Of a stretch of 36,356 nucleotides of DNA, positions 2,669 to 28,854 are shown piece after piece. Source of the stretch: a virus. The stretch is taken from the IMG/VR virus record IMGVR_UViG_3300019776_001117, positions 1 through 36,356 of that record; one strand, given 5' to 3'. The first letter of the stretch is position 1, and each line of letters opens with the position of its first letter. Below the pieces are notes generated by a model that had not been told where the DNA came from, searched no databases, and was given only the letters and a program-made list of their open reading frames with translations. The translations under genes were made by a program, and so were the position numbers.

Positions 2669-3073
2669 TTAACTCAACAACAAGAAACCCGCTATTTCCT
2701 CATCGTTCATGATAGAGGCAACACAATGGCCCCCTTTACGCCATTTGGAATAATCTACTCCAAACAGCAGGTAATAAAACAGCAAACCAAACCAACTTAG
2801 CGACTTTTCGAGCTTCTTTTTACCAAGGCAACTTGATAATGTTTCTCCAAAAACACCGAAACGATAACCGCCTGTAGAAAATACCAAATTCCAAAAGTCC
2901 GGAAACAAGAAGTTTGCAAAAACATCTACTTTGAAAGCCTTTTTAAACTTCCTTTTAGCTGTGATTTTAAACCATTTTCGACGACGCACATTGATGACTG
3001 TCATTGTAATTTCATCTAAGACATAAACAACAGCAAACAACAATAAGGCTATGATTGACAATACAAATCCCAT
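2669..3073 (-). CDS. Small membrane-associated phage protein, unrecognised
   Basis: 134 residues. An N-terminal transmembrane helix (about residues 3-20, GFVLSIIALLLFAVVYVL) is followed by a very basic segment (RRRKWFKITAKRKFKKAFK) that should stay in the cytoplasm. A second aromatic hydrophobic stretch, SWFGLLFYYLLFGV, lies around residue 92. The start overlaps by one base the stop of the preceding gene, so the two are translationally coupled at the end of the tail-fibre cluster. I recognise no family; a late membrane function or superinfection role is possible but unsupported. Confidence 0.6.
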   Translation of the reverse strand: MGFVLSIIALLLFAVVYVLDEITMTVINVRRRKWFKITAKRKFKKAFKVDVFANFLFPDFWNLVFSTGGYRFGVFGETLSSCLGKKKLEKSLSWFGLLFYYLLFGVDYSKWRKGGHCVASIMNDEEIAGFLLLS

Positions 3074-3561
3074 TACTCCACAAATTCAAATTGAACGCCT
3101 ATTTTTTCACCTTTCATCACCACAGCATCTTTAATGAATAATTGCGCTAAAGGATTTGTCAACGATATATTGCAATCATCAATGCTACCCCCATCAAAAT
3201 ACAACAATGAATCTTCTCGATTAGGATAGCCAATATCTTCAATTACATGAGTAGCTGGCAACTGCATATTATTTGCTGCCAAAACAGCCAACAATGGCAC
3301 GATTTCACCAGTAGCAATTTCTTTGGCGTAAGCAGTTCTATTGGTTGTTGGACTTTCTTCTGAATCGTTGTTATTGCCTTGAAACGGCAAGGTGCAACGG
3401 TCAAGAATTACCTTAACATTATCTTTCACGCAATACATTAAGAACTCAATGTAATACAATGAATTATCAATGATTTCTTTTTTACCATCTTCAATAAATA
3501 CGTTTACAAATGTGCCTTCTGTAAGTATCGGCGAGATATAATTTTGTGATTGTAGTTTCAT
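3073..3561 (-). CDS. Unrecognised virion-region protein downstream of the tail fibre
   Basis: 162 residues, soluble, acidic, no signal peptide or membrane segment. It follows the large fibre gene after 5 bases and is in the same operon, so it may be a fibre accessory, chaperone or distal tail component. The sequence shows alternating beta-type segments (VNVFIEDGKKEIIDN, KVILDRCTLPFQ) and a DDCNISLTNPLAQLFIKDAVVMKGEKIGVQFEF C-terminus region split by a Pro. I do not recognise the family. It lacks the GSRLCF-type motif of the DGR targets, so it is not a DGR target. Confidence 0.55.
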   Translation of the reverse strand: MKLQSQNYISPILTEGTFVNVFIEDGKKEIIDNSLYYIEFLMYCVKDNVKVILDRCTLPFQGNNNDSEESPTTNRTAYAKEIATGEIVPLLAVLAANNMQLPATHVIEDIGYPNREDSLLYFDGGSIDDCNISLTNPLAQLFIKDAVVMKGEKIGVQFEFVE

Positions 3562-3566
3562 TTTTC

Positions 3567-5843
3567 TTAGTATGTTGAATTATTGAAAATTGCTGGTAGA
3601 TTTGTCATTCCCACTTTATAAGTTCCAGAGGCATGGTATATAGAGCCTTCTTTTGTTACAAAATCAGAAGGAATATTAGTAGTTGTATCATTAGAAGATA
3701 CAAATAAAGCACCTGTACCGTTATCGATATATACACTTCCTTTAAACATAACTATACGAGAATAAAAACCTGTCGCATCCGCTGGAGCATTAACCCAATT
3801 AAACATCGGTCTATTATTAGGCATTATAATAGAAATATTTTGAAGTATTAGTTGCATACCATCTGTTGCTACTCTTATATCCATTAAAAAAAATCTTGCT
3901 GCTGATAAAAATGTCCCTGCATCTATAATATTAAGAGTCATATTTGAAAGCTTACAAGTTCTAGACCCCTCATAATTAGATGACCTTGTACCTCTCCCTA
4001 TATTAATAAGGTCATTTATAGTAACATTATAAGTAATATTTACTCTTTGACCAGTTCCGAGTATTTGAACAAAGCTAGTCCCAGAGTAATTATTATAAAA
4101 GACAATATTTGTATAGCTATATCCAGTTAATATCACTATACCAGTAAATCCGCATGTGATACCAGTTCCAGAACTACCTCCTAAAGTTAATACTGGAATT
4201 TTAGAAAAAGTATCATTATTACTAACTGTAATTCCGCTATAGTTATTTATTAAGTTTTTTATTGAAAAACTTCTACAACTAACAGACTGACTAAATAGTC
4301 CTGGTGTATAATTAACAGTTGCATCTCTTAGCTCTAATGTATTCACATCGAAATCAAATGAAACAGGTAAGTTTGAACCTAAAATTGAAATACCTTTATC
4401 TATTCTAAAGTAATTTACCTTCCAAGGAAGAACTGTAGTTCCAGATTGAATACTTCTTGTCCATCCTCTATCAAATCCATATCCAGTAGTGTTGTTAAAA
4501 CATAAAACATTTACATTGATTTCTAGGTAATAAGAACCTCCTGCAAAATCATTAAATGAGTAATTATAATACAAAGTAGTTGGTGTCCAATTAAAATTAA
4601 CTGTACCGTTTACTCGTAGAACAAAAGTTCTAGTTATCTGCAAGCCTTGATTAAAGTTGAACACGCAATTATTGTCAGAAATCAAATTAAAAGACTTCAT
4701 AGTGACTTGAGAATCCAAACTATAAGTTGCTGGTAAACCTGTTGTAATAATAAATAATCCATTACCATTATTGCTAGGCGTATGCGCATTAATAGCATTA
4801 ATACAGGCAATTAAGGTTTTAAAAGGTTTTACAGGATTATAAAATTCAGCAGTAGCGTCATTTCCGTTTGTATCATCAAGATAAACACTATTATATATCG
4901 ATACTTTTGGTACAATATTCCCCTCAACCGCCCACGTATCAGTAGCAACTTTTTTAAGGTAAAACGTATCGCCTTGTATAAAAGTCAAATTTCGTTGTAC
5001 AAATGTAATTCCAGCCCCTCCCACAGTAACAGCACCAGCACCCTCAACAGTACAGGTAATTGTTGTACCTATAGGAATAGCTACACTAGCATTAGTAGGT
5101 ACAGTAGCCGCTACAGCCGTTGCACTCGAAAAACGATTAGTTTTTTTATAATCATCAATAGCAAATGTATAGCTTACACCTGCAATCGAGTTATTGGTGA
5201 GTGCCCAGTCTTGTTTTCCTGAAACATCTGTCATCAGTGTCAAATCACCACTTCCTAAAATAGAATTACCGTTTATTGTTTTTATGTTGGTTCCTGAAAC
5301 CAAGGTCGCTTGTTTACCGTTAACAGCAGTTGTTAAAGTATCAATCAAACCTTTCAACGTTTTACCCATTTCAGCCGTCAAGGCCTTAGTGGTTCCGCCC
5401 GTGGTCAAGTCATTAACCAGTATTGTAGAAAGCGAAGTTTCAACCGTCTTGATCGCATCGACAAGCTCTTGAACGGTGTCAAGATTAACATCGTCAGAAG
5501 TCAACAGCGTGTTTATGGCCGTGATTTGCGTTTGCAATGCGGTAATTTGCGAAGCTGTCAACACATCGACTTCCTGCAAATCTTCCACTAAGCCGTTAAG
5601 TGTTTCGATGGCTGTGGATAATGTTTGGGCGGTTCCGGTGTAACCTCCGTGTGGTAATTTCGAATCCATTTCAGCCTGTCCAGGAATACCAGCCAACAAA
5701 CCATCCAGCCCCTCAATGTCGGCAACGGGAACTTTCTCACTCTTGTGGCGAAAAGAATCCAGCATTGCCCAAAATTGATCTTGCGTAGGCTTTAAATGGG
5801 TTTTAAACCAGTTTTTTATAGTATCTAAAGCAGTTACAGCCAT
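3567..5843 (-). CDS. Tail fibre / receptor-binding protein
   Basis: 758 residues. The N-terminus (DTIKNWFKTHLKPTQDQFW) resembles the baseplate-attachment segment of Bacteroidota phage fibres. Residues about 75-180 form a heptad-rich trimeric coiled coil (LTASQITALQTQITAINTLL and following). Then comes the recurrent fibre motif TNIKTINGNSILGSGDLTL around 185-205. From about 320 to the end the sequence is rich in short beta strands, Asn, Gly and Ser, consistent with a right-handed beta-helix adhesin. It lies between the baseplate/collar gene and two small genes, where Mu carries its fibre genes S and U. It probably determines host range. It carries no variable repeat, so the DGR in this phage does not act on it. 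Confidence 0.75.
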   Translation of the reverse strand: MAVTALDTIKNWFKTHLKPTQDQFWAMLDSFRHKSEKVPVADIEGLDGLLAGIPGQAEMDSKLPHGGYTGTAQTLSTAIETLNGLVEDLQEVDVLTASQITALQTQITAINTLLTSDDVNLDTVQELVDAIKTVETSLSTILVNDLTTGGTTKALTAEMGKTLKGLIDTLTTAVNGKQATLVSGTNIKTINGNSILGSGDLTLMTDVSGKQDWALTNNSIAGVSYTFAIDDYKKTNRFSSATAVAATVPTNASVAIPIGTTITCTVEGAGAVTVGGAGITFVQRNLTFIQGDTFYLKKVATDTWAVEGNIVPKVSIYNSVYLDDTNGNDATAEFYNPVKPFKTLIACINAINAHTPSNNGNGLFIITTGLPATYSLDSQVTMKSFNLISDNNCVFNFNQGLQITRTFVLRVNGTVNFNWTPTTLYYNYSFNDFAGGSYYLEINVNVLCFNNTTGYGFDRGWTRSIQSGTTVLPWKVNYFRIDKGISILGSNLPVSFDFDVNTLELRDATVNYTPGLFSQSVSCRSFSIKNLINNYSGITVSNNDTFSKIPVLTLGGSSGTGITCGFTGIVILTGYSYTNIVFYNNYSGTSFVQILGTGQRVNITYNVTINDLINIGRGTRSSNYEGSRTCKLSNMTLNIIDAGTFLSAARFFLMDIRVATDGMQLILQNISIIMPNNRPMFNWVNAPADATGFYSRIVMFKGSVYIDNGTGALFVSSNDTTTNIPSDFVTKEGSIYHASGTYKVGMTNLPAIFNNSTY

Positions 5844-26057: not shown

Positions 26058-26354
26058 TTAAGTAAATTCTAAATGTTCTGATTCTTTTATTATTGTTGTT
26101 TTGAATGGGAATTTGTCTTCAGGTACTTGTTTTATCATTTGCATTAAAATTGTTGAACCAGTAAATAAAATGTGTTTAGTTCCGTTTTTTTCGAGTTGAA
26201 GTACTAAACACTTTGTGCCTTGTTTAACCTTTGAATCTTCAATTTTATAGGCTAGTATTGTTATTTCGGCGTTTAATATTCTATCTACTTTTATTTTGTC
26301 ACCTGTAAAAGTGGATAGTTCTGCTTTGATTTTGAAATCTTTAAAGTTGTTCAT
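26058..26354 (-). CDS. Unrecognised 98-aa protein coupled to the DGR reverse transcriptase
   Basis: 98 residues with a five-strand-like beta pattern (DFKIKAELSTFTGDKIKV, EITILAYKIED, GTKCLVLQLEKNGTKHIL) and KFPFKTTIIKE near the end, suggestive of an OB-like nucleic-acid-binding fold. Its start overlaps the RT stop by 14 bases, so translation is coupled. It is not Avd (a basic four-helix protein) and contains no HRDC motif that I can see. It might be a DGR accessory factor, or simply an early gene captured next to it. Confidence 0.5.
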   Translation of the reverse strand: MNNFKDFKIKAELSTFTGDKIKVDRILNAEITILAYKIEDSKVKQGTKCLVLQLEKNGTKHILFTGSTILMQMIKQVPEDKFPFKTTIIKESEHLEFT

Positions 26355-27303: not shown

Positions 27304-27329
27304 GGCTTTGCTTAGATTGGCTCGCTTTC

Positions 27330-27349
27330 GTCCCGATAGCTATCGGGAC
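27330..27349. repeat. 20-bp perfect palindrome between TR and RT
   Basis: GTCCCGATAGCTATCGGGAC is identical to its reverse complement. It would form a strong hairpin in TR-RT RNA or a cruciform in DNA. The same sequence type is a common interspersed palindrome in Bacteroidota, but hairpins near DGR cassettes can also affect homing. Confidence 0.6.
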
Positions 27350-27418
27350 TACTAACGAACCTATTAAGAATGTGATTTTTTGCCGTGTTGGCAAGGTCTG
27401 TGGTGTTTAATATTTTAA

Positions 27419-27498
27419 GCTCAGGTGCGAGCTGACATTCGAATTCGTGTTCCAGTTATCGTAGTCGTTGTACGAAAAACTGCCACCTGAAGGAGAAC
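27419..27498 (-). repeat. DGR template repeat (TR)
   Basis: 80 bases on the minus strand containing 20 adenines. Read in the target frame they form codons such as TAC, AAC, GAC, GAT, AAC and AAT that give high diversity when A is mutated. It matches both VRs at all but one of its 60 non-adenine positions. Only the single G near its 3' end differs (T in both VRs), consistent with the IMH/IMH* difference. TR itself has no long ORF. Confidence 0.93.
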
Positions 27499-27528
27499 TA
27501 CAGCAACGACACCACACAACCTGTATTA

Positions 27529-27906
27529 TTATGCTTTTACAAAATAGGCTCTATACAAGTCTTCAAATTGCTTTCCTGCATATTTTGCCATTTCTCTAGT
27601 TTCGAAGCAAAGGCGCGAGCCGACAGTCGAAGACGCGATCCAGCGAACGCAGACGAAGAACGAAAAACCGCCACCCGAAGGAGAACCCATCTTAAACCAA
27701 GGATAGTATTTGTACTGATCCCAGTCCGTCCAGTCTGGGACCCAATCACCGTTTATGGCTTTGGCGATAATTACTAATTTGGCGTGAGCGATCATTGCTT
27801 CTTTATCCGATTCAGGAAACAATGAAAAATCTGGAATAATAGTTGCTGAATCCAAGTTTAATACTTGACAAGCGTCTTCAAATGTTTTAATGTTGGTGTA
27901 ATTCAT
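27529..27906 (-). CDS. DGR target protein 1, CLec-type variable protein
   Basis: 125 residues. The N-terminus is helical (FEDACQVLNLDSATIIPDF). The C-terminal half has the WTDWDQYKYYPWFKMGSPSGG lead-in and a CLec-like core with GSRLCFETREMAKYAGKQF. The region from SPSGG to RLC is the variable repeat. Variable residues, Phe-Phe-Val-Cys-Val-Arg and Ile-Ala-Ser-Ser-Thr, replace the Tyr-Asn-Asp-Tyr-Asp-Asn and Asn-Thr-Asn-Ser-Asn of TR. The gene is 30 bases before TR. It would encode a binding protein diversified by the RT. Targets of this kind in Bacteroidota phages are small and not fused to the fibre. Confidence 0.88.
   Translation of the reverse strand: MNYTNIKTFEDACQVLNLDSATIIPDFSLFPESDKEAMIAHAKLVIIAKAINGDWVPDWTDWDQYKYYPWFKMGSPSGGGFSFFVCVRWIASSTVGSRLCFETREMAKYAGKQFEDLYRAYFVKA
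27607..27686 (-). repeat. Variable repeat VR1
   Basis: Aligned to TR without gaps over 80 bases. It differs at 19 positions; 18 are template adenines, only the one near the 3' end is not. The gene lead-in is also nearly identical to that of VR2. Confidence 0.93.
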
Positions 27907-27915
27907 TTTATGTAA

Positions 27916-28374
27916 TTAAGCGGTTAAAAAATCTTTGTAAATACTCTCAAATAATTTTCCTGCATATTCGGCTAAATCAGAAGATTTGTAGCAAAGGTGC
28001 GAGCCGACACACGAACCCGCGCGCCAGTAAACGTAGTCGCTGAACGAAAAACCGCCACCCGAAGGAGAACCCATCTTAAACCAAGGATAGTATTTGTCCC
28101 ATTTACCGTTAGTCCAGTCAGGTGTCCAACCTTCATTAAATGCCTGAACGATTAATTTTAGCTGTTTATAAGCCAATTCGTCAGTAGAAAGACCTTTGCA
28201 TTGTTCTGCGAATTCTTTACCGTCAATGTTTAGGACGATAAGGACATCGACAAAGTTTGTGATACGTTCTTTAATGTCTTTTGGTATTTCTACCAAATTA
28301 ATTGCTCCCGACGTTTGGTCTATTGATCCAAACTTGTATCCTTTTGGAGGATTGATTTTCATTGTTTCACTCAT
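27916..28374 (-). CDS. DGR target protein 2, CLec-type variable protein
   Basis: 152 residues. The N-terminus MSETMKINPPKGYKFGS is a common lead in Bacteroidota phage proteins of this class, followed by a helical DVLIVLNIDGKEFAEQCKG region. The C-terminal half has WTPDWTNGKWDKYYPWFK and the core GSHLCYKSSDLAEYAGKLF. Variable residues are Phe-Ser-Asp-Tyr-Val-Tyr and Arg-Ala-Gly-Ser-Cys. It is paralogous to target 1 and lies 9 bases upstream of it, so one TR serves two genes. Not part of the tail operon, so it is unclear whether the product is a virion protein. Confidence 0.88.
   Translation of the reverse strand: MSETMKINPPKGYKFGSIDQTSGAINLVEIPKDIKERITNFVDVLIVLNIDGKEFAEQCKGLSTDELAYKQLKLIVQAFNEGWTPDWTNGKWDKYYPWFKMGSPSGGGFSFSDYVYWRAGSCVGSHLCYKSSDLAEYAGKLFESIYKDFLTA
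27991..28070 (-). repeat. Variable repeat VR2
   Basis: Ungapped 80-base alignment to TR has 16 differences, 15 at template adenines. It shares the single non-adenine difference with VR1. Confidence 0.93.
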
Positions 28375-28401: not shown

Positions 28402-28854
28402 TTATGCAGCAGCTCTGTACCAATCATCTTCGAAATAGCGTTGATTAATGAATGTTGCGAGCAATGCTTTTGAGGTTCCTTTTTTGGCTAGATAGAAGTC
28501 GTAACCTCTTAATGCCATGAAGCATTTTATTACATCGGCTTCTTTTAACTTGTTGAAAGCTTTTTGAGCTTCGAACTTTTTTGCTTTATGGTTGTAAAGG
28601 TTCCAAAGGTTTTCGAAACTAAAATCAGGCTCTCCAATTTCTACAGTAATAGTTTTATAAGCTTTTGACCATCCTTTTATATGATCTTCTTTCCATGGAA
28701 ACAAACCTTTTAAGTAGAGAAACTGTATTTGTTTTTCTGAAAGATCACCTTCAAGAACATTAAAGTAGATTAGCACACCGTTTAAATTGTATTTAAACTG
28801 CCAAATGTCCCCACGTTGCATCTTTACTGTGTATGTTGTGGTTAGTTGTTCCAT
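28402..28854 (-). CDS. Unrecognised early protein
   Basis: 150 residues, mixed alpha/beta, no membrane segment. The N-terminus (VKMQRGDIWQFKYNLNGVLIYF) looks like a small beta domain; the C-terminal half is helical and basic with KAFNKLKEADVIKCFMALRGYDFYLAKKG. It starts one base after the stop of the 46-aa gene (TAAAATG). Family not known. It lies 27 bases upstream of DGR target 2 and is in the same operon. Confidence 0.55.
   Translation of the reverse strand: MEQLTTTYTVKMQRGDIWQFKYNLNGVLIYFNVLEGDLSEKQIQFLYLKGLFPWKEDHIKGWSKAYKTITVEIGEPDFSFENLWNLYNHKAKKFEAQKAFNKLKEADVIKCFMALRGYDFYLAKKGTSKALLATFINQRYFEDDWYRAAA

Follow-up and report, generated by a model that had tools for sequence, protein, structure and literature searches.

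The virus record IMGVR_UViG_3300019776_001117 (36,356 bp, analysed in full and referred to here as the window) contains a short sequence in three related copies, which raises the question of whether these form a complete and working diversity-generating retroelement (DGR), which proteins serve it and what it diversifies. An initial annotation had read them as a template repeat (TR, 27419-27498) and two variable repeats (VR1, 27607-27686; VR2, 27991-28070) of a complete DGR, working or recently active, in a Mu-like phage. That reading held, and to it we add a candidate 98-aa partner gene, targets encoded in an early operon, the absence of Avd and a structured spacer RNA.

Template and variable repeats

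The positions of all three repeats were reproduced, and all lie on the minus strand, which the annotation had left unnamed (Table 1). VR1 differs from TR at 19 positions, 18 of them template adenines, and VR2 at 16 positions, 15 of them adenines, out of 20 adenines in the template. The sole exception, near the 3′ end, is a G to T change shared by both copies; counted once, it gives the annotated total of 34 mismatches with 33 at template adenines, and counting it separately for VR1 and VR2 gives 35. The adenine bias was highly significant in both comparisons (hypergeometric P = 1e-14 for VR1 and 3e-11 for VR2). A blind scan for adenine-biased pairs between 25 and 31 kb, which served as an independent check of the alignment, returned exactly TR/VR1 and TR/VR2 and no others, and a repeat finder recovered the same copies together with a longer repeat (206 nt, 75%) that joins the two target genes as paralogues. 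The IMH*-like segment of TR differs from the VRs by the non-A G to T change plus an A to T; in the comparison of IMH with IMH* the non-A change was the same in both VRs, and no common IMH consensus was obtained across the family. As expected of a DGR, both VRs lie inside protein-coding targets. The TR core has 14 adenine-containing codons; mutation can alter the encoded residue at 13 of them and can produce a stop codon at none, corresponding to a coding capacity of approximately 5e10 protein variants per target.

Table 1. Features of the DGR locus in the window
Feature	Position	Strand	Evidence or remark
Candidate accessory gene, 98 aa, phrog_19665	26058..26354	-	overlaps RT end by 14 nt
DGR reverse transcriptase (RT), 320 aa	26341..27303	-	GNYLSQ and YADD motifs; RVT_1; phrog_1423
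TR-to-RT spacer RNA, 105 nt	27304..27408	-	two conserved, covarying hairpins: 27381-27393, 27319-27361
Perfect palindrome, 20 nt, GTCCCGATAGCTATCGGGAC	27330..27349	-	inserted in apical loop of hairpin 2
IMH*-like 3′ end of TR	27409..27421	-	CCTGAG in TR, CCTTTG in both VRs
TR, 77-nt core	27422..27498	-	mismatch count, A-bias scan, codon analysis
Target B, 125 aa	27529..27906	-	phrog_11581; VR followed by ~26 aa predicted as two helices
VR1 in target B	27610..27686	-	18/18 core mismatches at template A
Target A, 152 aa	27916..28374	-	phrog_11581; paralogue of B with longer N-terminus
VR2 in target A	27994..28070	-	15/15 core mismatches at template A

Genome context

Profile matches to MuA/MuB-type genes (transposase phrog_310 and MuB-like phrog_296) and to a Mu-type portal (Portal_Mu) confirmed that the window represents a Mu-like phage. 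The transposase and MuB-like genes occupy the right end of the record, the Mu portal and terminase its middle, and a tail fibre gene lies at 3.6-5.8 kb, some 22 kb from the DGR and its targets; this layout places the DGR in a leftward early operon. The order of transcription is target A, target B, TR, spacer RNA, RT and the 98-aa gene, with TR about 30 bp beyond the stop codon of target B. Immediately upstream of target A is a conserved 150-aa gene (28402-28854) whose product weakly resembles replication initiation proteins. The nearest prophage found was in Flavobacterium sp. AED, and its RT is 89% identical to that of the window, which makes a Flavobacterium-like host likely; the phage is probably one of Flavobacterium.

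Activity of the lineage

When viral contigs and bacterial genomes were scanned, approximately 150 loci with a related RT emerged, most of which share the arrangement and spacings of the window, with two targets and a TR that precedes the RT by about 100 nt. The A-specific TR/VR pattern recurs in more than 100 loci. Comparison of the window with one relative (L015) revealed an identical TR (0/77 differences) within surrounding DNA that differed at 288 of 1779 positions (16%). The VR sites that are not adenine in the template were also identical in both targets (0/58), and the adenine sites differed at 10/19 positions in target A and 14/19 in target B. Identity of the non-A sites to TR despite 16% divergence of the neighbourhood is what repeated overwriting from TR predicts. 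Two near-identical relatives (L084 and L087) had no differences in 2124 flanking bases, whereas one of their VRs was altered at 11 of 20 adenine sites and the second VR at no site, indicating that retrohoming has been recent in the family and can strike one target at a time. VR diversity with a constant TR, which the annotation had proposed to look for, was therefore found among relatives, with the changes confined to template adenines, and the annotation's description of the element as working or recently active holds at the level of the lineage. With TR, two VRs in coding targets, a DGR-type RT and a structured spacer all present, these comparisons indicate that the DGR is complete and active in its lineage.

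Reverse transcriptase and spacer RNA

The RT annotated downstream of TR on the basis of its SQ motif could be read with both the GNYLSQ and YADD motifs, and matched the RVT_1 (E=2e-22) and phrog_1423 (E=2e-125) profiles; dN/dS analysis of the RT and the 98-aa gene showed the RT to be under purifying selection. Between TR and the RT, alignment of 58 sequences shows two conserved, covarying hairpins in the RNA: 96.9% of cells were paired, compared with 33-41% when the partners were slid, and 149 cells were changed on both sides, compared with 38 in shuffles. The corresponding TR-RT spacer of BPP-1 folds and recruits RT-Avd (PMC12875486). A search of Rfam at gathering thresholds gave no match. 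The palindrome listed in Table 1 extends the tip of hairpin 2 in the window alone and is absent from all aligned relatives.

A candidate accessory gene

The 98-aa protein matched the phrog_19665 profile (E=3e-10), as did 55/56 members of its family, and had no Pfam match above cut-off and no relative in the PDB. In a neighbourhood survey, the one gene directly 3′ of the RT in 78 loci was phrog_19665, and the family was found downstream of the RT in 135/155 RT loci, a count that includes some duplicates of one contig and that in mini-target loci (those with small targets like the ones described here) arises partly by construction, since downstream copies were used to train the family HMM. This does not affect the fused, upstream, hankyphage, archaeal and whole-genome cases. 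In eight loci with tail-fibre-type targets phrog_19665 lies upstream of TR, between the target and TR, which is the place of avd in BPP-1, and in L118, L068 and BT-TP2, as in hankyphage, it is fused to the C-terminus of the RT. It occurs with both target types, mini targets and tail-fibre targets. Among 397 Flavobacteriaceae genomes we found three copies, all abutting a DGR RT (3/3), and in six whole genomes with such prophages, two of them common to the set of 397, 7/7 copies mapped to DGR loci. The gene is under purifying selection (dN/dS 0.05-0.18).

No profile match to Avd (bAvd, PF22296) was found in the window or its relatives, against 2e-37 for the BPP-1 control. In a first panel of 27 records Avd was found only in BPP-1 (2e-37), and phrog_19665 was found in 24/26 of the others and was absent from BPP-1. 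In a second panel of 13 phages, again including BPP-1, Avd was found in BPP-1, phiARM81mr, ZX4290 and BalMu-1 and phrog_19665 in Versailles, vir525 and BT-TP2, never together. Perkons, LBR48, Arawn, cr115, cr52 and LMMB, from the wider RT clade within this panel, had neither Avd nor detectable phrog_19665, indicating that the phrog_19665 module is not universal; the RT of cr55_1, tested for a fused domain, gave a weak match (E=0.0016, probability 16%). We rejected a diverged Avd as the identity of the 98-aa gene (hhalign to BPP-1 Avd only 0.15%). Confinement of phrog_19665 to Bacteroidota was also rejected, because vir525, a virus of Methanosarcinales, has a phrog_19665-like gene directly 3′ of its DGR RT (L186 3492-3779).

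The family alignment suggests a beta-beta-beta-alpha-beta-beta order that may be OB-fold-like. Position, fusion and exclusion of Avd link phrog_19665 to the RT, and the gene probably encodes an accessory component of the DGR that had gone unrecognised, with a biochemical role that we infer. It was not named as a DGR partner in the literature searched, although an earlier mention in the survey by Wu et al. is possible; that survey, from 2018, is said to catalogue DGR accessory genes.

Target genes

Targets A and B had no Pfam match above cut-off, phrog_11581 being the only family matched, and Pfam and phrog profile searches found no fibre or trimerisation domain in either; inspection by eye gave no signal peptide. 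Foldseek searches with models of both targets gave no PDB match, and a search of BFVD returned only uncharacterised phage proteins; weak helical matches to cryptophyte phycobiliproteins were discarded as chance. On whether the VR domain has a C-type lectin fold, the models fell below pLDDT 50 exactly at the VR; the mini-target VR core could be aligned to that of tail-fibre targets (hhalign 85%, E=6e-6).

De-duplicated viral contigs contained 70 target-A and 70 target-B genes, with further ones in prophages of Bacteroidota genomes. The deepest split of the target tree placed 79/89 A and 83/89 B sequences on opposite sides, indicating that the pair is old and has been kept together; some related loci have three or four target copies. 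In a Dyadobacter prophage (L123 5020-17161) one TR is accompanied by four VRs, two of them 5-7 kb from the cassette, and a single 286-aa ORF with two VRs (L139 8928-9788) appears to join targets A and B in frame. In a 45.7-kb record (L008) that has no related RT, two paired targets whose VR segments are DGR-like (2866-3700) lie between SSB and primase genes named by eye; these targets may be orphans or diversified in trans.

Conserved same-strand neighbours of the targets encode a MuB-like AAA protein, DUF3164, DnaG and a DNA methylase, all early or replication genes, and this location holds throughout the family; Mu F and other head genes are on the opposite strand. The early position of the targets alone would be compatible with a virion protein. 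One Mu F-like head protein (L030 8235-9419) has a C-terminal PBECR2 nuclease-toxin domain.

Proposed mechanism and alternative explanations

The explanation that we consider probable as a whole is a DGR active in its lineage and located within the early operon that a Mu-like phage carries, with phrog_19665 machinery and early paralogous targets. The RT would copy TR RNA and misread adenines, a mechanism taken from the DGR family and matched by the mutation pattern observed here, and the resulting cDNA would overwrite the VR of either target gene. The phrog_19665 protein would be the partner of the RT, probably binding nucleic acid, and would do the job that Avd does in BPP-1, and the targets would be two ancient paralogues made with the early genes. 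That the repeats are instead ordinary paralogous repeats with a chance adenine bias could draw on the paralogy of the two target genes, but given the P values of ~1e-14 and 3e-11 and the recurrence of the pattern across the related loci this is vanishingly improbable. An intact element that is silent in this one genome is a rather unlikely alternative: the genome is known from one consensus sequence and the unusual palindrome in its spacer hairpin was not found in relatives, but both the RT and the accessory gene are under purifying selection, and the match of VR non-A sites to TR against the background divergence requires recurrent copying. We likewise doubt that the 98-aa gene merely hitch-hikes among the early phage genes and plays no part in the DGR; although it sits in a compact operon and phrog_19665 has no assigned biochemical function, its fusion to the RT in several lineages, its relocation upstream of TR, its occurrence beside either type of target and in the archaeal virus vir525, its mutual exclusion with Avd and the finding of 0 copies away from an RT in the 397 genomes all argue against this.

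As to the targets, we tentatively favour early soluble binding proteins, in which diversification of a surface loop would keep pace with host factors that change, defence proteins for example. Close behind, and a serious contender, is the possibility that A and B are virion receptor-binding or decoration proteins merely encoded far from the late genes, since viral DGR targets are mostly tail proteins (PMC8144416; PMC12629997), the mini targets have a VR core that can be aligned with that of tail fibres, and close RTs elsewhere diversify fibre-like proteins of 430-570 aa. Against a virion role, the targets are small, lack a fibre or trimerisation domain and belong to an early/replication operon throughout the family, and LoVEphage has a fibre-side VR beside its TR as well as a mini target among DNA-modification genes. 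Returning to early soluble binders, a broader reading, offered with some hesitation, is that there may be an Avd-free branch of DGRs that uses phrog_19665, free or at the RT C-terminus, in Bacteroidota phages as well as in one or more archaeal viruses. In Mu-like phages of Flavobacteriia and relatives, this machinery may hypermutate paired early soluble non-virion binders, which would amount to a repertoire carried by the phage and aimed inside the host cell.

Relation to known systems

The hankyphage p00 DGR belongs to a Mu-like phage of Bacteroides (PMC6199706) and its activity has been measured (PMC12135933). It shares with the window a Mu-like Bacteroidota phage, the TR-RT order, an A-specific VR and the phrog_19665 domain. 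In contrast to the free-standing 98-aa gene and two small early proteins of the window, it has phrog_19665 fused to its RT, which is only 33% identical to ours, and a single target, a 2225-aa tail fibre with a C-terminal VR. The crAss-like phage DGRs (RT lineage 3, PMC7290462) have the closest RTs among named phages (60%), the same target-TR-RT order and no avd, but their target is a tail-collar fibre and phrog_19665 is undetected in them, or weakly suggested in cr55_1. BPP-1 shares the TR/VR/RT logic, A-specific mutagenesis and structured TR-RT spacer, and differs in having Avd in place of phrog_19665 and the tail protein Mtd as target. In LoVEphage the RT is downstream of a tail collar fibre (PMC8525569), and distal second VRs near DNA methyltransferases have already been noted, with a suggested arms-race role (PMC12629997). 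We found that its second target belongs to the same family over its full length, as a homologue of target A (hhalign 99.5%, E=2e-22), in an early-type neighbourhood of methyltransferase and resolvase genes, and that phrog_19665 follows the RT. Between the VR of this second target and the LoVE TR there are 19 mismatches, 19/19 at template adenines. Unlike the window, LoVEphage has a single mini target, 15 kb from the cassette, besides the VR next to TR. The LoVEphage RT matched in three separate pieces in OY731433 (L171 788-1799), suggesting that it is broken or mis-assembled in that record.

Avd is found near 62% of DGR RTs (PMC8934634), and about a quarter of DGRs, including lineage 3, have no known accessory gene (PMC7290462). 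The DGR described here is itself of a known kind; what is new is the pair of early targets and, most of all, the partner phrog_19665. Since this partner, which seems to take the place of Avd, is fused to the RT of the laboratory-active hankyphage DGR, the working of Avd-free DGRs becomes directly testable, and paired early targets would extend phage DGRs beyond tail fibres.
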